The notes beneath the pieces are model-generated. The model was not told the origin of the DNA and did not search any database. It worked only from the letters and a program-made list of their open reading frames with translations. A stretch of DNA of 36,751 nt, from assembly GCA_028285085.1 (NCBI GenBank), contig JANQQI010000093.1, positions 1 through 36,751 of the forward strand, written 5' to 3'. The DNA comes from Saprospiraceae bacterium (GTDB lineage Bacteria > Bacteroidota > Bacteroidia > Chitinophagales > Saprospiraceae). The position numbers and the translations under genes were made by a program. Within the stretch, counting starts at the first letter, position 1. Every line of letters starts with the position of its first letter. Below are positions 5,567 through 31,835 of the stretch, piece after piece.

Positions 5567-5581
5567 TGCAACGAAGTTGCA
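5567..5581. promoter_or_regulatory. Upstream operator dyad (imperfect 7-1-7)
   Basis: TGCAAC at 5567-5572 and GTTGCA at 5576-5581 are exact inverted halves around a three-base centre. Read as 7-1-7 it has one mismatch. It shares its six-base halves with the perfect dyad at 5602-5622; the two centres are 38 bp apart. It overlaps the likely -33 element (GTTG, 5576-5579) of the ABC operon, so a bound protein would occlude RNA polymerase. The regulator is not identified; the 7-1-7 form is typical of Fur-family proteins such as Fur, Zur and PerR. Confidence 0.6.
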
Positions 5582-5606
5582 ATTGCTGTTTTCTTGCGTA
5601 TATTTG
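5576..5606 (+). promoter_or_regulatory. Bacteroidota-type promoter of the ABC/CobW operon
   Basis: TATATTTG at 5599-5606 matches the Bacteroidota -7 consensus TAnnTTTG exactly. Nineteen bases upstream is GTTG (5576-5579), a one-mismatch match to the -33 TTTG element, at the normal spacing. Transcription should start near 5613, giving a leader of about 25 bases before the ATG at 5637. Both promoter elements lie inside palindromic operators. Confidence 0.6.
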
Positions 5607-5622
5607 CAACATTGTTGCAAAT
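5602..5622. promoter_or_regulatory. Perfect 21-bp operator palindrome over the -7 element
   Basis: Ten-base arms (ATTTGCAACA and TGTTGCAAAT) flank a single central T at 5612, a perfect dyad. The core is 7-1-7, TGCAACA-T-TGTTGCA. It covers the end of the -7 box and the expected transcription start, which is a repressor position. The 7-1-7 form fits the Fur/Zur/PerR family. Zur is favoured because two genes of the operon (DUF1826 and COG0523 GTPase) belong to zinc-starvation regulons elsewhere; this is inference. Confidence 0.65.
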
Positions 5623-5636
5623 GTAAATTATCGCCA

Positions 5637-6338
5637 ATGATCCGATTACAAGACGTTCACAAATCTTTCAAAGGGAATCCAGCGATTCAAAATCTAACGC
5701 TGCAAGTGGAAAAAGGTGAAATCTTGGGTTTATTGGGGGCAAATGGAGCCGGAAAGTCGACGACGATCAATATGCTATTGGGTTTCCTTAGTCCAGATTC
5801 GGGCTCAGTCAGTATTAAACAGTTGGATGCGACCCAAAGAGCAAGTGAGGTGCGTCAACTTGTCGGTTACATCCCCGAGAACGTTAATCTTTATTCTTAT
5901 TTGACGGGCGTTGAAAATTTAGACTACTTCTGTCGTTTAGCGGGCTTGCGCTATGCGAAAAAAGAATTGGAGGATGTCCTCACCACTTGTGGCTTGCAAA
6001 GTGAAGCGCATCATCAAAAGGTCGCCAACTATTCCAAGGGGATGCGGCAAAAAGTAGGCATTGCCATTGCCTACGCTAAGAAAGCAGAAGTCTATCTGCT
6101 GGATGAACCTGCAAGTGGTTTGGATCCCTTGGCGAGTAATGAATTATCTGATTTGCTCAAAAAACTAGCATCTGAGGGGGCAACGATCCTCATGGCTTCT
6201 CACGATATTTTTCGAGTGCGGGAAGTTTGCCATCGCATCGGGATTCTGAAGAAAGGCACCTTAATCAAAGAAATTCGTAGTGATGCCATCAGTGCCAGTG
6301 AGTTAGAGCAACTGTACTTGGAATTCATGAAAAACTAG
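5637..6338 (+). CDS. ABC transporter ATP-binding protein
   Basis: This is a 233-residue nucleotide-binding subunit of an ABC-2-type transporter. It has a Walker A motif GANGAGKST at residues 34-42, a signature region reading YSKGMRQK, a Walker B with LLDEP followed by a D-loop SGLD, and a switch histidine in the ASHD sequence. It would hydrolyse ATP on the cytoplasmic face to drive the two permeases encoded next. I chose the ATG at 5637 because MIRLQDVHKSF is the usual N-terminus. A longer open frame from a TTG at 5577 would start inside the promoter/operator and adds only unrelated residues. It is the first gene of a five-gene operon. The family resembles NosF/CcmA-like export ATPases; the substrate is unknown. 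Confidence 0.88.
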   Translation: MIRLQDVHKSFKGNPAIQNLTLQVEKGEILGLLGANGAGKSTTINMLLGFLSPDSGSVSIKQLDATQRASEVRQLVGYIPENVNLYSYLTGVENLDYFCRLAGLRYAKKELEDVLTTCGLQSEAHHQKVANYSKGMRQKVGIAIAYAKKAEVYLLDEPASGLDPLASNELSDLLKKLASEGATILMASHDIFRVREVCHRIGILKKGTLIKEIRSDAISASELEQLYLEFMKN

Positions 6339-6344
6339 GTGGCT

Positions 6345-7754
6345 ATGTGGCAAATCATCAAAAACGAAGGGTATTTCTTGAGCCGCAGCCGGACATTATT
6401 GGGAACTAGCCTGGCTTTCCTCCTAATGTTATTCCTCACCCTGTTTCTGGGACATCAGCAAACCCAACAACAAACCCAAGCTTATCAAACGGCTAAGGAT
6501 CACTTACGCGCGCAATGGGAAGGTATCAAAGAAATGAATCCACACGGGGCAGCACATTACGGCACCTATGTCTTTAAGCCCGCTAATTTGTTGGGTAGCT
6601 TGGATGAAGGGGTTAATACCGTTACGGGCAATGTTTTGCGGGTAGAAGGACACGTCCAAAATGAAATTGTCCATTCAGAGGCCTCCCAAATGCAATCGAT
6701 TTCTAAGTTTGGTAAGCTTAAAAGCTCGCTTTTACTGCAGTTTATTGTTCCCCTGTTATTAATCTTTTTGGCTTTTCATACCGTAAGTAGTGAAAAACAA
6801 AGCGGGAGACTCAAACTACTGGTTTTACAAGGTGCCAAGCCTTTTTCTTTAATTTTTGCTAAAACCTTGGCAATCTGGAGCTATGGTCTTTTACTCTTGA
6901 TGGCAGTACTACTGGTTTACACTCTTTTTAATTTTCAAAATCTAGATGCCGAGGTATTGACCCGATCGGTGCTATTTTTTCTGTCCTATGCGCTTTACTA
7001 TTTTATTCTGACGGGATTAACGGTTTTCTTTTCATCCCGTTGGCAAAATGCCACGGTTGCTCTCACTTCTATGCTCGGTATTTGGATCGTTTGGACGATA
7101 TTTTTACCCAATATTTTAATGAGTTCGGTCGAAAAATGGCACCCCTTACCCAGTCGAAATGAATTTAAAACGGCCATGAAGGAGGACCGTTCCAAAGGTT
7201 TAGATGGTCATAATCCTACCGACGAAAGGAAAAAGGAATTAGAAGAAGCGACTTTAAAAGAGTACGAAGTCGATAGTCTTTCCCAGTTGCCAATCAATTT
7301 TGATGGTCTTTTAATGCAAGCTGACGAAGAGTACGGTAATCAGGTTTGGGATAAGCATTTTGGACAATTAAGAACTGTACTCACCCAACAAAAACAAAGT
7401 CTGCAGCTCGGTGGTAGTATCAATCCATTTATTGCATTACAAAATGCAAGCAGGGGATTTGCGGCCAGTGATAACTTACACCATCAGGAATTTTTGGTGC
7501 AGGTGGAGCAATTCCGCAGAGTGTTCATTAAAGCCCTCAATGATAAACATGCTTATGGCGGTTCCAAAACTGGAGATTGGGGGTGGAAGGCCGATAATGC
7601 TTTCTTTAAGTCTATCCCGGATTTTAAATATCAACCTATTACTCTGGCTTCGGTATTTTCTCATTACGTGCTGGACTTAGCGATTTTAATGCTTTGGTCG
7701 ATTCTAACGGTTGTTTTATTAATTCTTGGCGCGCGTAAAATGCAAATCGTATGA
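6345..7754 (+). CDS. ABC-2 permease, first subunit (DUF3526-like)
   Basis: This 469-residue membrane protein has about six transmembrane segments: one near residues 17-36, four clustered between about 126 and 260, and a last one at the C-terminus ending in LILGARKMQIV. Two large soluble loops, about 90 residues after TM1 and about 170 residues before the last TM, should be periplasmic. The sequence SSEKQSGRLKLL after TM2 is the usual ABC-2 coupling region that contacts the ATPase. A GTG at 6339 directly follows the previous stop, but the ATG two codons later (6345) gives the natural MWQIIKNE start. It overlaps the next permease by four bases (ATGA), indicating translational coupling. The DUF3526 label is a family judgement by eye, and no substrate can be assigned. 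Confidence 0.78.
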   Translation: MWQIIKNEGYFLSRSRTLLGTSLAFLLMLFLTLFLGHQQTQQQTQAYQTAKDHLRAQWEGIKEMNPHGAAHYGTYVFKPANLLGSLDEGVNTVTGNVLRVEGHVQNEIVHSEASQMQSISKFGKLKSSLLLQFIVPLLLIFLAFHTVSSEKQSGRLKLLVLQGAKPFSLIFAKTLAIWSYGLLLLMAVLLVYTLFNFQNLDAEVLTRSVLFFLSYALYYFILTGLTVFFSSRWQNATVALTSMLGIWIVWTIFLPNILMSSVEKWHPLPSRNEFKTAMKEDRSKGLDGHNPTDERKKELEEATLKEYEVDSLSQLPINFDGLLMQADEEYGNQVWDKHFGQLRTVLTQQKQSLQLGGSINPFIALQNASRGFAASDNLHHQEFLVQVEQFRRVFIKALNDKHAYGGSKTGDWGWKADNAFFKSIPDFKYQPITLASVFSHYVLDLAILMLWSILTVVLLILGARKMQIV

Positions 7755-9070
7755 AAAACCTTAGCGTATTTTTATATGAATGGAAGCACTTTTCCCGAAA
7801 TCGGTTTAAAGTAGTTGCCCTATTGCTTTATGTTGCCGCAGGAATTTACGGATTACACAATGGCGCGGCTTTATACCAACAGCAAGTTTCAGAAATTGAA
7901 AGAATTGAAGAAGAAGCTCATACGGGAAGACAAAAATATATTGCCTACTACGATGAAGGTAAGAAAGGCCCCGAAGATCGCCCCTGGGTGGATATGACGA
8001 CCCCTTTTTGGGCGATATGGTATGCTTCTATTTATCATTTTAAAATGCCTTCTCCGGCTATCGTATATAGTATTGGACAAGCGGAACAATACGGTTTCTA
8101 TAAGCGGGTAACGTTTTTGAGCAGTCCTTATGATGCGGATATGGCCGAGGAAATTGCTAATCCTGAACGTCTCCAAACTGGGACACTGGATTTTGCCTTT
8201 GTTGTGTTATTTTTGCTGCCTTTACTGCTGCTCATTTTATTATACAACGTAAAAAGTGCGGAAAGCGAACAAGGTTTTTTGCCATTAATAGAAGTACAAA
8301 CGGTTTCCACAAATAGTTGGCTTTTGTCAAGGGTTAGTTTTTATGCCACCTTGGTGCTGTTGAGTCATTTAATTTTAATTTTTTACGGCGCCATGCTCAC
8401 ACCAGTTCTTGAGACAGCGTCTCAAGTCGTTGGACAAGTATTCCTCTACATCTTTTTATCACTTGTTTTTTGGTCAACGATTTATTTTTTAATTCTCCGA
8501 AAAGGGAAAACCATTACCGGCAATGCTTTGAAAATGGTAGGGATCTGTGTGGTATTTCTATTTATCATACCGGCAGTAGTACACCAGTGGCTAAGTATAA
8601 AACAGCCCGCCAATTTGATGACGGACTTTATTGATGCCAACCGGGATAAAAAAGATGATCTTTATAATCAACCCGATAGTGTGATTCAAGCTCAGCTTTT
8701 CGCCATGTTCCCTGAAATCGTTGATAGTCCCTTGGCTCAGGATACGCTCAGGATCGATCAAGCCAGAAATCGATCCACCTATTCTTTAGTCAATGAACTA
8801 ATGAAAGCCAGTATTGTCCCCATAGAAAACGAAAACGATCATAAAAATCAATTCATTCGAACGACCTATTGGTTTAATCCAGTGACCTTTTTTCAAAACC
8901 AATTTAACAAAATTACGCAAACACATTATCGTGATTATCAGCAATATCGAGATGATATTCAAAATATGATCGATGGGCAAATCCGAATGATGGTTTTAGA
9001 CATTTGGCAAGATGTAAAGGTCGATAAAGCGAAATACCTGGAATATGCTAATGTGACGAAAGTCGATTAA
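7751..9070 (+). CDS. ABC-2 permease, second subunit (DUF3526-like)
   Basis: This is a 439-residue homologue-like partner of the preceding permease. It has five clear hydrophobic segments: near the N-terminus (LLLYVAAGIYGL), then FVVLFLLPLLLLILL, LVLLSHLILIFYG, FLYIFLSLVFWSTIYFL and VVFLFIIPAVV. The coupling motif after TM2 reads SAESEQGFLPL. Unlike its partner it has no C-terminal transmembrane helix: the last roughly 160 residues are hydrophilic and end in YANVTKVD. If the N-terminus is cytoplasmic, this tail is periplasmic. The start codon overlaps the stop of the upstream permease. The two proteins probably form an asymmetric heterodimer with the ATPase at 5637. Confidence 0.75.
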   Translation: MKNLSVFLYEWKHFSRNRFKVVALLLYVAAGIYGLHNGAALYQQQVSEIERIEEEAHTGRQKYIAYYDEGKKGPEDRPWVDMTTPFWAIWYASIYHFKMPSPAIVYSIGQAEQYGFYKRVTFLSSPYDADMAEEIANPERLQTGTLDFAFVVLFLLPLLLLILLYNVKSAESEQGFLPLIEVQTVSTNSWLLSRVSFYATLVLLSHLILIFYGAMLTPVLETASQVVGQVFLYIFLSLVFWSTIYFLILRKGKTITGNALKMVGICVVFLFIIPAVVHQWLSIKQPANLMTDFIDANRDKKDDLYNQPDSVIQAQLFAMFPEIVDSPLAQDTLRIDQARNRSTYSLVNELMKASIVPIENENDHKNQFIRTTYWFNPVTFFQNQFNKITQTHYRDYQQYRDDIQNMIDGQIRMMVLDIWQDVKVDKAKYLEYANVTKVD

Positions 9071-9086
9071 TTTTTTTTAATAAAAA

Positions 9087-9098
9087 CTAACTAGTTAG
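9087..9098. repeat. 12-bp palindrome before the DUF1826 gene
   Basis: CTAACTAGTTAG is a perfect 12-base palindrome in the 38-base gap after the second permease, ten bases before the ATG at 9109. It follows a run of eight T. It may be a secondary control or processing site inside the operon, or chance in A+T-rich DNA. Confidence 0.3.
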
Positions 9099-9108
9099 AG
9101 ATATAATT

Positions 9109-9759
9109 ATGATAAATGTAGAAACAACAGGCCAAGCAACTAATGCAGCCATAGGTAATGATGCTAAAGTTTTGTCAGAAATACACTTGGCATCAAAAAA
9201 TATTGCTATTCTTCAGCGTGATCTTAGTGCTTTGAATGACATGCTTTTGTCTTTAAAAGAGCGTCCGGTTGGGTTAAAAGCAAATGGAACCGTTGAGGAA
9301 ATTACTACTAGTTTGAAAAAGTACTTCGATGAAGAATTAAATGGTTATACACTCATTTTAAATGACATTGTAAATGTGTTAAGTTTGTTTGAGAATTTAA
9401 CCCAATCCTCCTCTTTCCGCTTATTACTAACTATCGTTGATACGGATATGTGCCGACGATTTCACACGGATATTAACCACTTGAGATTATTATGTACTTA
9501 TACGGGACAAGGAACGCTTTGGCTCCCGGACGAGGCGGTGAATATAAAAGCGTTGAAATCAAGGAACACAGAGCTGGAAATTGCTAAGGATAAAAATCAA
9601 ATACAACAAGCGGGTGCAGGGGATGTAGTTATTCTGAAAGGGGCCTTACATCCAGAGGGAAATGCGGTAGTGCACCGTAGTCCTACGATTGAATCCAGCG
9701 GAGAAAAAAGACTCTTGCTCAGAATTGACACTAATTCATTTTTAAATTTTGGCCTTTAA
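9109..9759 (+). CDS. DUF1826 family protein
   Basis: This 216-residue protein matches the DUF1826 pattern as I know it: CRRFHTD at residues 115-121, RLLCTYTGQGTLWL at 126-139, DVVILKG at 172-178, VHRSP at 188-192 and a nearby arginine at 201. There is no signal peptide or membrane segment, so it should be cytoplasmic. The family has no established activity. In other bacteria its genes often lie next to COG0523 GTPases within zinc-starvation loci, and here the next gene is such a GTPase. The His119-x-Asp121 ... His189 ... Arg201 arrangement resembles the metal and co-substrate ligands of Fe(II)/2-oxoglutarate oxygenases; that is my inference. It is the fourth gene of the operon that begins at 5637. 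Confidence 0.7.
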   Translation: MINVETTGQATNAAIGNDAKVLSEIHLASKNIAILQRDLSALNDMLLSLKERPVGLKANGTVEEITTSLKKYFDEELNGYTLILNDIVNVLSLFENLTQSSSFRLLLTIVDTDMCRRFHTDINHLRLLCTYTGQGTLWLPDEAVNIKALKSRNTELEIAKDKNQIQQAGAGDVVILKGALHPEGNAVVHRSPTIESSGEKRLLLRIDTNSFLNFGL

Positions 9760-9824
9760 AAAAGAGCGATAAACTAGCCTCTCTATTTTAGTCCTTAACA
9801 CCTACTGAAAATAAAATATTATTT

Positions 9825-11048
9825 ATGGTAATAGATAAAAAACTTCCCGTTACCGTCTTAAGTGGATTCTTAGGAGCGGGTAAAACTACCTTACTAAACC
9901 ATGTTTTGCATAATAAAGAAGGTTTGAAGGTTGCAGTCATCGTCAATGACATGAGTGAGGTGAATGTAGACGCAGAATTGGTCAAGAATGAAAATACACT
10001 ATCGCGTACTGAAGAAAAACTAGTAGAGATGAGCAATGGCTGTATCTGCTGTACTCTTCGGGAAGATTTGATGGTGGAAGTAGAACGTTTGGCTAAAGAA
10101 AATCGCTTCGATTATCTACTGATTGAGAGTACTGGTATTAGCGAACCTATACCTGTGGCTCAGACGTTCTCTTTCGTCGATGAAGACAACGAGATCGACC
10201 TTTCCCGCTTCAGCTATATTGACACCATGGTAACGGTGGTTGATGCCTTCAATTTTTTCAAAGATTTTGGAAGCCCTGAAACCTTGATGGACAGAAATCT
10301 CACGGATATGGAGGGTGATTATCGCACCATCGTTAATCTCCTTACGGACCAGATTGAGTTTGCTAATGTCATCATATTGAATAAAACAGACTTGGTCAAC
10401 GAAGAGCATCTTGGCGTACTCAAGGCTGCCATCAAAAAGCTGAATCCCTCCGCTCGCATTATTGAATCGACTTTCAGCAACGTCAGTCCCAATGCAATTC
10501 TCAATACGGGCCTATTCAATTTTGAAGAGGCTGAACAAAGCGCTGGCTGGATTGAAGAGCTAAATAAAGATGAGCATACACCAGAGACGGAAGAATACGG
10601 CATTGCCTCTTTCGTATACCGAAATACAAAACCTTTCAATCCAGAACGTTTCTGGCACTATATCCAACACAAATTTCCGGGTACCATCATCCGTAGTAAA
10701 GGATTGTTTTGGCTGGCTTCCCGTCCGGGGCAGGCCCTGGTTTGGAGCCAGGCCGGAGGCTCTTTGCGGGCCGATAGCGCTGGTGTTTGGTGGAGCAGCA
10801 TGCCTTATCGGGAAAGGACACAGTATTTGGCTTTCATTGAAAACCAAAAAGAAATCGAATCCGACTGGGATCAAACCTTTGGTGATCGCAAAAACGAAAT
10901 TGTGTTTATTGGACAAGATATGGATGAAGCGGTTATTCGAGCTAGTTTAGATGCTTGTATAGCAACTGACGAAGAAATCAGTTCGCATCAATGGCGAAGA
11001 GGCTATGAAGATGAGTGGCCCGTACAACGTGCGTATTCCTTAGGATAA
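9825..11048 (+). CDS. COG0523/CobW-family GTPase, ZigA/YciC-like zinc metallochaperone
   Basis: This 407-residue G3E GTPase has Walker [10 protein letters not shown] at residues 14-22, the metal-binding CICC motif at 73-76, IESTGISEP at 100-108 and the guanine-specificity motif NKTD at 186-189. A CobW C-terminal domain follows, with [20 protein letters not shown], two tryptophan-rich stretches and a late [11 protein letters not shown] strand. The C-terminal pattern and length match the YciC/ZagA/ZigA branch, which delivers Zn(II) to target enzymes during zinc shortage, rather than cobalamin-type CobW. The acidic, His-containing linker is short (DEHTPETEE). It is the last gene of the operon and a strong terminator follows 23 bases after the stop. 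The family call is secure; the zinc role comes from homologues and context. Confidence 0.9.
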
Positions 11049-11071
11049 AAAAGACATTACTGGCTATAACT

Positions 11072-11119
11072 AAGTAGGGAACGGTGAAGCTTCGGCCACC
11101 GTATCCCTACTTTTTTTTG
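11072..11119 (+). terminator. Strong intrinsic terminator after the ABC/CobW operon
   Basis: AAGTAGGG (11072-11079) pairs with CCCTACTT (11105-11112), and ACGGTG (11081-11086) pairs with CACCGT (11097-11102), with one bulged base between the two helices. The loop is ten bases and a run of T follows to 11118. It closes the operon that begins near 5613. Confidence 0.88.
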
Positions 11120-15767: not shown

Positions 15768-16775
15768 ATGTCAAAAACCCAGCAATCTGAAGCTTACCGT
15801 ATTAGTCGCCGTTGGCAGCAGTTGGCCCTATGGCTCGGGCTGGGCATTCTAATTGTCAAGTGGATTGCCTGGGCAATGACCAACTCCAACGCCATTCTCA
15901 CCGATGCGATGGAGAGTATCATCAATGTGGCGGCGAGTACTTTCGCGCTCTACAGTCTTTCGCTCGCCGCTAAGCCTCGTGATGACAACCATCCCTACGG
16001 TCACGGCAAGATCGAATTTATCGCTGCTGGTCTCGAAGGTGGACTTATCCTGATTGCCGGCTTGCTGATCTTCTCCAAAGCCATCTACAATTTTTTTCAG
16101 CCACAGACCCTCGTTGCACTGGACGTGGGAATTGGCGTTACCGCCATCACCGGCCTACTTAATTATTGGCTCGGCCAGCGCCTGTTGCATACTGGCCGTC
16201 GCTACCATTCGCTCACCTTGATGGCCGATGGCCGCCATTTACTTTCGGATGCTTATTCTTCACTGGGACTGGTCTTAGGACTTTTTTTAGTCTATTTGAC
16301 TGATCTCATCTGGCTGGATAATGTGCTGGCGCTCATCTTTGGGGTCGTTATCCTCGTAACGGGCTATCGGCTCGTGCGGACTTCCACGGCGGGGATTATG
16401 GATGAAGCCGATCCGGGACTAATCGATACCCTGATTGAGGATATCAATCAGGAACGTAGCGAAAACTGGATCGATATCCACAACTTTCGCGTGATTAAGT
16501 ACGGGGCCACCCTCCACATTGACTGTCATCTGACCTTGCCTTGGTATTTTGATGTGCGCGAAGCGCACGATGAGGTTAAAGCCTTCGAGGAACTTACCGA
16601 AAGATGCTGTGCAGTTCCTGTTGAACTTTTTATCCATACCGATCCTTGTGAGGACGAGCTTTCCTGTCGCTTATGTAGTAAATCTGATTGTGCGCATCGC
16701 CTCGCTGAATTTCAAAAACGCGTGGAGTGGCACGCCGGGAATGTGATGCATAATCAAAAGCATCGTTTGGAGTAG
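15768..16775 (+). CDS. Cation diffusion facilitator (CDF) metal transporter
   Basis: This is a 335-residue CDF exporter with the usual six membrane segments and a cytoplasmic C-terminal domain. The TM2 signature reads DAMESIINVAAS, the loop NHPYGHGKIEF follows, and TM5 carries ADGRHLLSDAYSS with the His-x3-Asp metal pair. By alignment to YiiP/FieF from memory, the TM2 site would be Glu49 and Asn53 rather than Asp and Asp, which may change metal preference. The C-terminal domain ends with an unusual cysteine cluster (CEDELSCRLCSKSDC) followed by a His, a likely extra metal-binding site. It would export a divalent metal such as Zn(II), Fe(II), Mn(II) or Co(II) using the proton gradient. The metal is not determined by sequence. 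Confidence 0.88.
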   Translation: MSKTQQSEAYRISRRWQQLALWLGLGILIVKWIAWAMTNSNAILTDAMESIINVAASTFALYSLSLAAKPRDDNHPYGHGKIEFIAAGLEGGLILIAGLLIFSKAIYNFFQPQTLVALDVGIGVTAITGLLNYWLGQRLLHTGRRYHSLTLMADGRHLLSDAYSSLGLVLGLFLVYLTDLIWLDNVLALIFGVVILVTGYRLVRTSTAGIMDEADPGLIDTLIEDINQERSENWIDIHNFRVIKYGATLHIDCHLTLPWYFDVREAHDEVKAFEELTERCCAVPVELFIHTDPCEDELSCRLCSKSDCAHRLAEFQKRVEWHAGNVMHNQKHRLE

Positions 16776-29696: not shown

Positions 29697-29837
29697 AACA
29701 CTAAACATTATCCTTCTCCATTTTTTTATACAGTAATTAATAATTCAACTAATTTTAAGCATCAGGAATCTACTTGGACTTTTATGATTTCATTGGATGA
29801 TACAAAATATATTTTCACCATCTTGAAAATTGCTGTT

Positions 29838-30806
29838 ATGAAAAAGTTTTTACTCTTCTTTTTTAGTATGACTTACGGTTTGATGCTCGGTGCGCAAACC
29901 AATGTACAGCTTAATATCCATCACAAAATGGGGGATGCACCATTCGCTATTTTGACACCCGCGAAGAATAATATCGATCACGATTTTGATTTCAAGCGGA
30001 TGCAGTATTATATCTCCGAAATTAGTCTTACGCATGACGGTGGACAGGTCACGCCAATTGAAGATACCTGGTTGTTAGTAGATGCTACAGAATCGACGGT
30101 TGTTGATCTGGGAGACTACGACATGACCCAACTGGAAGCCATTCGCTTTCACATTGGTGTAGACTCCATGCACAACCATCTAGATCCAGCCAGCTGGCCA
30201 AATGATCATCCCTTGGCACCAAAGTCTCCCACTATGCACTGGGGCTGGATCGCTGGTTATTTTTTCATTACGCTAGAAGGACGCGGCGGTCCAAATTATG
30301 ATCAAAACATCGAACTGCATGGATTATTAGATGATAACTACCATGCGATAGAACTCCCCTTATCGGAAACCGCAGTCGATAACCAACTGGTGATTAATGT
30401 TGCTGCAGACTATACTCGAGCATTAGAAGATATTGAGGTGAATGACGGTAATATCTTGCACGGTGGAGTAGGCTCGGCGCGTCATGCCATAGAAAATTTC
30501 CGGGATTACGTCTTTAGCATCGGAGGGCCGGCAACGGTATCGACTATTGAGTTGAGCGAATTACAAAGCCTTGAACTTTATCCCAACCCCTCAACTTCGA
30601 GGCATTCCACGGTACGGATCAATACCACCGGACAACATGTTTATGACTTAAACATTTGTGATGTACTCGGGCAGTCTATTCAATCTATCACCCAAGTACA
30701 AAGTAACGAAGCGATTGCTTTGGAGCTGCCCGCGCAAGGTGTTTATATGATTCAATTGGTGAAAGCCGGGCAAACTGTTTTAACGAAGCGCTTGGTGGTG
30801 CAATAA
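29838..30806 (+). CDS. MbnP-like copper-associated protein with T9SS sorting domain
   Basis: This is a 322-residue protein with a signal peptide (MKKFLLFFFSMTYGLMLGAQ), an MbnP-family domain (about residues 22-228) and a type A T9SS sorting domain (about 245-322: LELYPNPS to TKRLVVQ). MbnP hallmarks include MQYYISEISLTHDGG, IRFHIGVDSMHN, MHWGWIAGYFF (Trp135, Trp137) and an AIENFRDYVFS end. In methanotrophs, MbnP is modified at a tryptophan to kynurenine by the diheme enzyme MbnH and then binds copper. The next gene, seven bases downstream, is an MbnH-like diheme protein, which supports the call. The tryptophan that would be modified is not proven. An ATG at 29784 is open but lacks a signal, so 29838 was chosen. 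Confidence 0.85.
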   Translation: MKKFLLFFFSMTYGLMLGAQTNVQLNIHHKMGDAPFAILTPAKNNIDHDFDFKRMQYYISEISLTHDGGQVTPIEDTWLLVDATESTVVDLGDYDMTQLEAIRFHIGVDSMHNHLDPASWPNDHPLAPKSPTMHWGWIAGYFFITLEGRGGPNYDQNIELHGLLDDNYHAIELPLSETAVDNQLVINVAADYTRALEDIEVNDGNILHGGVGSARHAIENFRDYVFSIGGPATVSTIELSELQSLELYPNPSTSRHSTVRINTTGQHVYDLNICDVLGQSIQSITQVQSNEAIALELPAQGVYMIQLVKAGQTVLTKRLVVQ

Positions 30807-30812
30807 GCCTTA

Positions 30813-31835
30813 ATGATGCGACTCCGACTTCTGTTTTGGTGTTTGTTGGCGTTGAGCTGTTGGGCCTGTGCCGAGCAAGATGAGCTGGCAATTGATACTT
30901 TTCCGGCTTTGATGGCCGTGCCTGCAGGATTTCCAGCTATCGAAGTACCGGAGGATAACGCTTTCAGCCCGGAGCGATGGGCGTTGGGAAAGCGCTTATT
31001 CTATGATCCGGTAATGTCGGTAGATTCTACGGTAAGCTGTGCGTCTTGTCATCGACCGAATCTGGCTTTTAGCGACAACCGTGCGATGAGTCCGGGCGTC
31101 GCGGGGCGTCCGGGTGTCCGAAATTCCCCCAGCTTAGCCAATGTAGCCTATCAGCCTTATTTCACGCGAGAGGGTGGCGTGCCGACTTTGGAAATGCAAA
31201 TATTGGTGCCAATTCAGGAGCACAATGAATTTGATTTCAATATTGTATTGTTAGCAGAGCGGCTCGCTCAGGATGCAAGCTACGTTGAGCAAGCGGCCGC
31301 TGCCTATGGACGCCAACCCGATCCTTTTGTGATTACGCGAGCCTTGGCCTGTTTCGAAAGGAGCCTTTTGAGCGGTAATAGTCCATTTGATCAATTTGAG
31401 TACCAAAATAGAAAGACGGCACTCTCTCGTGAAGCACTACGAGGGATGGATTTATTCTATAGTGATCGCACGAATTGTTCGGTTTGCCATTCAGGCTTCA
31501 ACTTTTCAAATTATGCGTTTGAGAATAATGGGTTGTACGATGTTTATGCTGATCCCGGTCGTTTTCGATTGACTGGGGATACTTCCGATATGGCCCTTTT
31601 CAAAGTCCCGGGGTTGCGCAATGTTGCCGTTACCGGACCATATATGCACGATGGCACCTTTGAGCGTTTAATGGATGTCATTGAACATTACAATCAAGGG
31701 GGAAAGGCTCATCCCCATCGCAGCCCGTTGATTCGACCGTTGCAACTGACTGAGCAAGAAAAGGCCGATTTAGTACAATTCCTGGAGGCTCTGACCGACG
31801 AATCATTTATTAAGAATCCGCTTTTTGAGCCATAA
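30813..31835 (+). CDS. MbnH-like diheme cytochrome c peroxidase family lipoprotein
   Basis: This 340-residue protein starts with a lipoprotein-like signal (lipobox near CWAC, about residue 19). It carries two c-type heme sites, CASCH at 76-80 and CSVCH at 222-226. Further family features are GRPGVRNSPSLANVAY, REGGVPTLEMQI, a distal Met278 in GPYMHDG and a terminal QEKADLVQFLEAL helix. The family covers bacterial cytochrome c peroxidases, MauG and MbnH; adjacency to an MbnP gene favours MbnH, which oxidises a tryptophan of MbnP with peroxide. It would be anchored in the periplasm. Seven bases separate it from the MbnP-like gene, so they form a two-gene operon. Confidence 0.87.
   Translation: MMRLRLLFWCLLALSCWACAEQDELAIDTFPALMAVPAGFPAIEVPEDNAFSPERWALGKRLFYDPVMSVDSTVSCASCHRPNLAFSDNRAMSPGVAGRPGVRNSPSLANVAYQPYFTREGGVPTLEMQILVPIQEHNEFDFNIVLLAERLAQDASYVEQAAAAYGRQPDPFVITRALACFERSLLSGNSPFDQFEYQNRKTALSREALRGMDLFYSDRTNCSVCHSGFNFSNYAFENNGLYDVYADPGRFRLTGDTSDMALFKVPGLRNVAVTGPYMHDGTFERLMDVIEHYNQGGKAHPHRSPLIRPLQLTEQEKADLVQFLEALTDESFIKNPLFEP

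Follow-up and report, generated by a model that had tools for sequence, protein, structure and literature searches.

What does an ABC-2 transport system do when its genes share an operon with those for a DUF1826 protein and a ZigA-like GTPase? The question is raised by a 36,751-nucleotide stretch of the genome of a Saprospiraceae bacterium (assembly GCA_028285085.1, contig JANQQI010000093.1), called the window below, in which a run of five plus-strand genes at positions 5637–11048 encodes an ABC ATPase, ABC-2 permease 1, ABC-2 permease 2, a DUF1826 protein and a ZigA-like GTPase. Judged from sequence, the operon is very probably under zinc-starvation control, and it is likely to have a role in zinc acquisition. 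The explanation that we favour, and consider reasonably probable, is a zinc-starvation operon under Zur-type repression whose ABC-2 transporter, of the type described as ZnuGHI in Caulobacter crescentus, serves zinc acquisition.

The operon and its promoter

The operon and its control elements occupy these positions of the window:

5567–5581, unstranded: predicted Zur-type operator 1, TGCAACGAAGTTGCA, an exact box that overlaps the -33 TTG
5577–5606, plus strand: Bacteroidota-type promoter, TTG-N19-TATATTTG (TTG at 5577–5579, 19 nt, TATATTTG at 5599–5606)
5603–5621, unstranded: predicted Zur-type operator 2, TTTGCAACATTGTTGCAAA, an exact box that overlaps the -7 element
5637–6338, plus strand: ABC ATPase of ABC-2 type, 233 aa (PF00005, ABC_tran, E 1e-31)
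6339–7754, plus strand: ABC-2 permease 1 (ABC2_membrane_2 and DUF3526 in Pfam)
7751–9070, plus strand: ABC-2 permease 2 (DUF3526 weak, below the Pfam cut-off)
9109–9759, plus strand: DUF1826 protein (PF08856, E 3.4e-41)
9825–11048, plus strand: ZigA-like COG0523 (G3E) GTPase (cobW and CobW_C in Pfam, CICC motif)
11072–11119, plus strand: intrinsic terminator (61-nt stretch, -24.8 kcal/mol, z -4.66)

Two boxes of the form TGCAAC-N3-GTTGCA lie at the promoter, with their starts 38 bp apart. Since the -33 element is inside 5567–5581 and the -7 element runs into 5603–5621, a repressor sitting on both boxes would cover the promoter. The promoter itself was assigned to 5577–5606 by the TTG / TAnnTTTG consensus of Bacteroidota promoters. 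When the window alone is searched for the box with three mismatches, the result is near chance (5 matches against a shuffle mean of 1.99, with 7 of 100 shuffles reaching 5).

An earlier note on this DNA had read the five genes as running from a single promoter to a strong terminator. The open reading frames, the promoter and the z-score of the terminator bear this out, as does the lack of any TAnnTTTG element in the gaps before the DUF1826 and GTPase genes (38 and 65 bp, respectively). The genes for the two permeases overlap by 4 bp. A consensus terminator scan missed the terminator at 11072–11119. For the ATPase, a start at ATG 5637 agrees with the homologues and the TTG at 5577 of the open reading frame list is too early, while ATG 6345 is a possible alternative start for permease 1. 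The same note had found no substrate-binding protein or TonB receptor, and Pfam likewise places neither within the five-gene operon, although TonB receptors are present at other genomic loci of the same predicted regulon. An A-I binding protein, as expected of ZnuABC, is also missing from the operon, the sole genomic PF01297 gene being located elsewhere. An ATPase gene followed by two ABC-2 permease genes in a row, the ZnuGHI-type arrangement, is present.

The predicted regulon and related loci

The zinc link had previously been drawn from two gene families and the form of the operator. Boxes across the genome and related loci in other genomes, together with the ZnuGHI precedent, now give it good computational support. 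There are nine exact copies of the box in the 7,470,950-base source genome, spread over five loci, whereas we calculate about 0.4 copies for random sequence of that length with equal base frequencies. Allowing one mismatch yields 18 sites, against 6 for a reversed control motif. The exact boxes are distributed as follows:

This operon: two boxes
Contig C13: two boxes, between a Fur-family gene and divergent alanine racemase, alpha/beta hydrolase, DUF5916, COG0523 and MerC genes
Contig C4: one box, about 0.2 kb upstream of a folE paralogue (L012 7261–7935)
Contig C69: three boxes, in a cluster of a TonB receptor and two lipoprotein-like genes (assigned by eye), one of them DUF4625
Contig C114: one box, at a locus that has genes for MerC, a His-rich protein and a TonB receptor

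The box-associated folE paralogue is one of three GTP cyclohydrolase I genes in the genome, and ZnuD is the second-best NCBIfam match of the C69 TonB receptor, far below its cut-off (110.8 against 950 bits). The proposed check of whether the motif precedes zinc genes came out positive: it stands before other metal-type genes, including the predicted Zur gene. The only ZnuA-family (PF01297) gene, which adjoins a regulator of the DtxR/MntR family by Pfam, has no box in the surrounding 14-kb stretch even with two mismatches allowed. The stretch around the ZIP locus contains no box either.

Four Fur-family matches were found in the genome. The one on C13 carries the PF01475 domain (33.4 bits, cut-off 23.1), and chains of FurB and of the zinc uptake regulation protein are among its five best PDB profile matches. 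It is the likely regulator of the operon because its relatives in genomes G011 and G003 (54% and 56% identity, respectively) are encoded divergently beside the same operon. We name it Zur by its regulon, not by its sequence.

Permease 1 has a match in 11 of the 59 genomes that were searched as relatives, a set of 59 to which the window's own genome belongs. A close form besides that of the window is found in four of them (G003, G011, G017 and G041; 65–74% identity), with the G003 copy cut by a contig end. A draw of 198 genomes across the phylum gave a homologue in 18, again counting the window's own, and since none of the others exceeds 33% identity, the close form appears uncommon. A pattern scan of genome contigs was used to collect further loci, of which the best 80 of at least 584 confirmed relatives were kept; all counts for 80 loci rest on these, and the pattern contained H69 and H73 of permease 1, which shaped the loci that were found. 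We divided them into a close set (L062–L099, n = 38, 52–75% identity) and a distant set (n = 42). In a midpoint-rooted tree of 68 sequences, for which 13 of the 80 permease-1 proteins, the short L121 among these, stayed outside the alignment, the close 38 and the window form one clade of 39 with a support of 0.90. Record titles of the close set include Flavobacteriia, Saprospiraceae, Melioribacteraceae, Calditrichia and Marinimicrobia, and this patchy taxonomic spread suggests that the close-form operon may have been transferred between lineages.

The core order of ATPase, permease and permease recurs in 71 of the 80 loci, while the exact five-gene order, whose recurrence in Bacteroidota had been proposed as a check, was found in just one (L071). 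Of the 38 close loci, 24 have a box near the start of the ATPase gene, compared with none for a control palindrome (260 bp upstream to 80 bp inside the gene, two mismatches). Over all 80 loci (1 465 287 bases), there are 54 exact boxes, while 179 control palindromes, permuted without change of composition, have a mean of 0.04 and a maximum of 1, though these counts are not independent, as some of the loci come from related species. Tandem box pairs spaced 36–40 bp apart occur 28 times, with the second box overlapping a TAnnTTTG element in 16. Such conserved spacing and placement are as expected for a two-site repressor.

A Zur-type gene is divergent and adjacent in 18 of the 38 close loci, by a scripted count that omits L074 with its over-long ATPase start; in L088, zur is separated from the ABC genes by those for ZigA and DUF1826. 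Cultured carriers with a zur-type gene beside the operon include Winogradskyella vidalii and Flavivirga jejuensis (L064 and L066). The 6 kb around permease 1 include a Zur-like gene in 22 of the close loci, MerC in 16, ZigA in 12, DUF1826 in 6 and FolE in 5; in the 42 distant loci, DUF5916 is present in 19, a TonB receptor in 14, ZigA in 12 and a Zur-like gene in 9. Neighbours were named by BLAST at E 1e-5 or better with one query each, and ‘Zur’ among them means Zur-like. Of 12 plasmid records with DUF3526, nine were covered and seven of these are annotated; a TonB receptor is in the cluster in six of the seven annotated stretches, one of which also has DUF2946. On a Spirosoma plasmid (L152 3034–3109), two Zur-type boxes, one exact and one with a single mismatch, precede the TonB receptor of the DUF3526 cluster.

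Several observations weigh against Zur-type zinc control of this operon and a zinc uptake role for its transporter. No box was found near the ATPase start in 14 of the 38 close loci, and in the distant set one is present in 2 of 41 (L114, with no ATPase match, was left out). The Zur, ZigA, DUF1826, MerC and FolE genes are all missing within 6 kb in 9 of the 38 close loci, some contigs being short, and 23 of the 42 distant loci are without any of the five marker genes. Across the nine plasmid stretches, three Zur-type patterns gave weak matches only, Spirosoma excepted. The C13 regulator fails the NCBIfam Zur equivalog NF008646 (23.8 against 167 bits), and its best solved relative by PDB profile is a Fur. 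A second, short Fur-family gene on contig C46 (L057 4513–4881) is directly preceded by a box with one mismatch, and the operator could therefore serve more than one repressor. The GTPase scores 563.1 bits with the ZigA model NF038288, under the cut-off of 600, and is called ZigA-like for that reason. Ahead of its gene lies a sigma-70-like site (9795–9822) that speaks against a single promoter; such sites are near chance in the window, with 19 found against 14.8 in shuffles. In addition, ABC-2 proteins are mostly exporters.

Transporter, partner proteins and alternative explanations

Permease 1 has six predicted transmembrane helices with large loops after the first and the fifth, and DUF3526 (PF12040; 94.9 bits, cut-off 25, E 9.4e-27) lies in the second loop. 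No literature on DUF3526 was found in the collection searched, where DUF1826 appears in three papers. In the first, periplasmic loop, H73, E103 and H105 are conserved in all 17 proteins compared, H69 and D89 in 16 of the 17. These 17 were found without the pattern and comprise the window, eight plasmid and eight relative-genome proteins, alpha- and betaproteobacterial ones included (L151 was dropped as no open reading frame was recovered); in the 80 loci, conservation of H69 and H73 is circular because the scan pattern contained both. Permease 2, with DUF3526 at 21.2 bits (cut-off 25), has five predicted helices and lacks a C-terminal sixth. By hydropathy, this sixth helix is present in 0 of 37 close proteins (L095, with no permease 2, was dropped and the L086 fragment counted) and in 38 of 42 distant ones. 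The best solved relative of permease 1 by PDB profile is NosY (E 4.7e-10, profile residues 131–257), followed by four sequences of the exporter subunit PmtD. The earlier term ‘exporter-like’ applies to the fold only.

Among the partner proteins, the GTPase has the cobW and CobW_C domains and the CxCC motif of COG0523/CobW proteins, with CICC at residue 73. The DUF1826 protein matches PF08856 at 141.8 bits (cut-off 22) and has H119 and D121 (HxD), H189 and R201 invariant in 14 of 14 sequences, a set that looks like the facial triad of Fe(II)/2OG oxygenases. A PDB profile search with this protein gave no match below E 0.05 and no oxygenase match, and no other Pfam family fell below E 0.03.

The mechanism that we favour is as follows. 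In the presence of zinc, dimers of the Zur-type Fur-family protein encoded on C13 would occupy the two operators, mask the -33 and -7 elements and so silence the operon; when zinc runs short, the operon would be transcribed. The ATPase and the two permeases would assemble into an inner-membrane ABC-2 transporter of ZnuGHI type, which would act in zinc acquisition after the TonB receptors that belong to its regulon. The conserved His/Glu residues of the first loop of permease 1, on the periplasmic side, may hold the metal or its ligand. The likeliest course, though also the least certain step, is that zinc or a zinc complex would then be moved inward without a separate binding protein. The GTPase, going by its family, would allot scarce cytoplasmic zinc, and DUF1826 may perhaps have an oxygenase-like role. 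We give inward transport by the ABC-2 system somewhat less than even weight. The full proposal, that an ABC-2-fold zinc importer with no binding protein, a His/Glu site in a permease loop and six plus five helices replaces ZnuABC in a group of Bacteroidota and related lineages that have a Zur operator of their own, is tentative, and we hold it less likely than not.

Small secreted-looking proteins of roughly 100–140 aa, which contain His, in many cases CxxC, and terminate in R/K-P/G/A-PP, are encoded before the ATPase gene (on C114, before the TonB receptor gene). Examples are:

L103, 8837–9127: small secreted-looking protein
L112, 8762–9088: small secreted-looking protein
L062, 8697–9017: small secreted-looking protein
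L015, 3807–4229: small secreted-looking protein

By eye, such a gene precedes the ATPase in 16 of the 42 distant and 4 of the 38 close loci. None of the Bacteroidota proteins scanned reached a Pfam cut-off, and a proteobacterial one is DUF2946.

These proteins bear on an alternative that we regard as unlikely, in which Zur controls the operon but the ABC-2 system exports a product of use in zinc shortage, either a zincophore or a small, His-rich protein of the periplasm. The ABC-2 fold, the PmtD matches, the position of the small genes and the His-rich protein ending in RGPPP at the C114 locus are in its favour. The window operon is without the small gene, though, and the linkage of the family to TonB receptors suits uptake. 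Furthermore, no metallophore biosynthesis gene was seen by eye in the operon or among the open reading frames of the box loci, where no targeted search was made.

We give equally little weight to the system moving nothing across the membrane, with ATP instead driving a periplasmic step, such as loading a protein with metal or freeing metal from a receptor or chaperone, much as in NosDFY. The NosY match, the large periplasmic loops with their conserved His/Glu residues and the missing sixth helix of permease 2, which is odd for a translocation pathway, would fit this mode of action, but by Pfam none of the five genes is NosD- or NosL-like, and the part of permease 1 that matches NosY does not include the loops.

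It is improbable that the regulator and operon respond to another metal (manganese, iron or cobalt): although Zur cannot be told from Fur or PerR by sequence alone in this case, the regulon holds an extra folE, COG0523 GTPases, MerC genes and TonB receptors, FurB and zinc uptake regulation chains are among the five best matches of the regulator, though a Fur is first, and Caulobacter ZnuGHI answers to zinc through Zur (PMC4176598). Chance adjacency of an ABC system unlinked to zinc, to which the single recurrence of the five-gene order and the patchy family (18 of 198 genomes) might point, is very improbable given the boxes near the ATPase, the adjoining Zur-type genes and the excess of exact boxes in the genome and the 80 loci.

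Elsewhere in the window, a CDF cation-efflux transporter is encoded at 15768–16775, about 5 kb downstream of the operon, and at 29784–31835 a gene for an MbnP-type protein bearing a T9SS sorting tail stands ahead of one for an MbnH/MauG-like di-heme enzyme.

Comparison with known systems

The cluster A-I importers, ZnuABC included, resemble the window operon by role, as Zur-controlled ABC systems. They differ in having an A-I binding protein and an ABC-3 permease, neither of which is in the window operon, where an ABC-2 system with DUF3526 is found instead. In NosDFY, the likeness lies in the core of permease 1, which matches NosY; the window operon differs in its large DUF3526-type loops, two different permeases, absence of NosD and a zinc-type regulon in place of nos genes. 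The Pseudomonas aeruginosa system PA4063–4066 has permeases of another type than those of the window operon. Like the operon, it is an ABC system of zinc starvation distinct from ZnuABC, and PMC10393844 describes it as poorly characterised; compared by description, it differs in its two candidate binding proteins. The COG0523 ZigA/YciC and DUF1826 families both occur in proteobacterial Zur regulons, according to PMC2770081 and PMC5786701; the difference here is that they are joined to an ABC-2 system.

The nearest precedent is znuGHI of C. crescentus (CC1518–1520), which encodes an ABC-2 ATPase and two ABC-2 permeases and is up 29-, 38- and 12-fold in a zur mutant, is derepressed by EDTA, has an operator bound by Zur in EMSA and adjoins the divergent TonB receptor gene znuK (PMC4176598). 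A review lists ZnuGHI as a zinc uptake ABC system (PMC6103462). The two operons are compared here by description. As far as the passages on ZnuGHI go, they share an ATPase, two ABC-2 permeases and an operator on the promoter, with both the operator and Zur repression reported there and predicted here, whereas ZnuGHI has a TGTTAT-type operator, its receptor divergent next door and no ZigA or DUF1826 named in its operon. Those passages give no phenotype for a znuGHI deletion. The term ‘substrate-binding’ does not occur in the text of the paper (PMC4176598). Of 14 control genomes, that of Caulobacter vibrioides alone contains DUF3526, and ZnuH and ZnuI are presumably the DUF3526 proteins of Caulobacter.

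The earlier claim that a zinc-linked ABC-2 transporter would be little described was thus an overestimate, since ZnuGHI is already reported as Zur-repressed (PMC4176598), and the kind is known by its regulation. A text search of the Zur review PMC6103462 for ‘bacteroid’ gave no occurrence, and the literature searched, with regulon databases and most subscription journals outside its scope, yielded no title on a Bacteroidota Zur regulon. What this analysis adds is a predicted Zur-type box for Bacteroidota and relatives, with predicted coupling to ZigA, DUF1826, MerC and folE, as well as the conserved periplasmic His/Glu motif and the loss of the sixth helix in permease 2 across the clade. A group of Bacteroidota thereby gains a predicted Zur operator along with a zinc regulon that is small and likewise predicted. 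The Caulobacter system, so far described only loosely, becomes a family of which certain parts, the periplasmic His/Glu motif and the missing helix, can be tested. If the transporter does import zinc, an ABC-2 fold would work inward without a binding protein.

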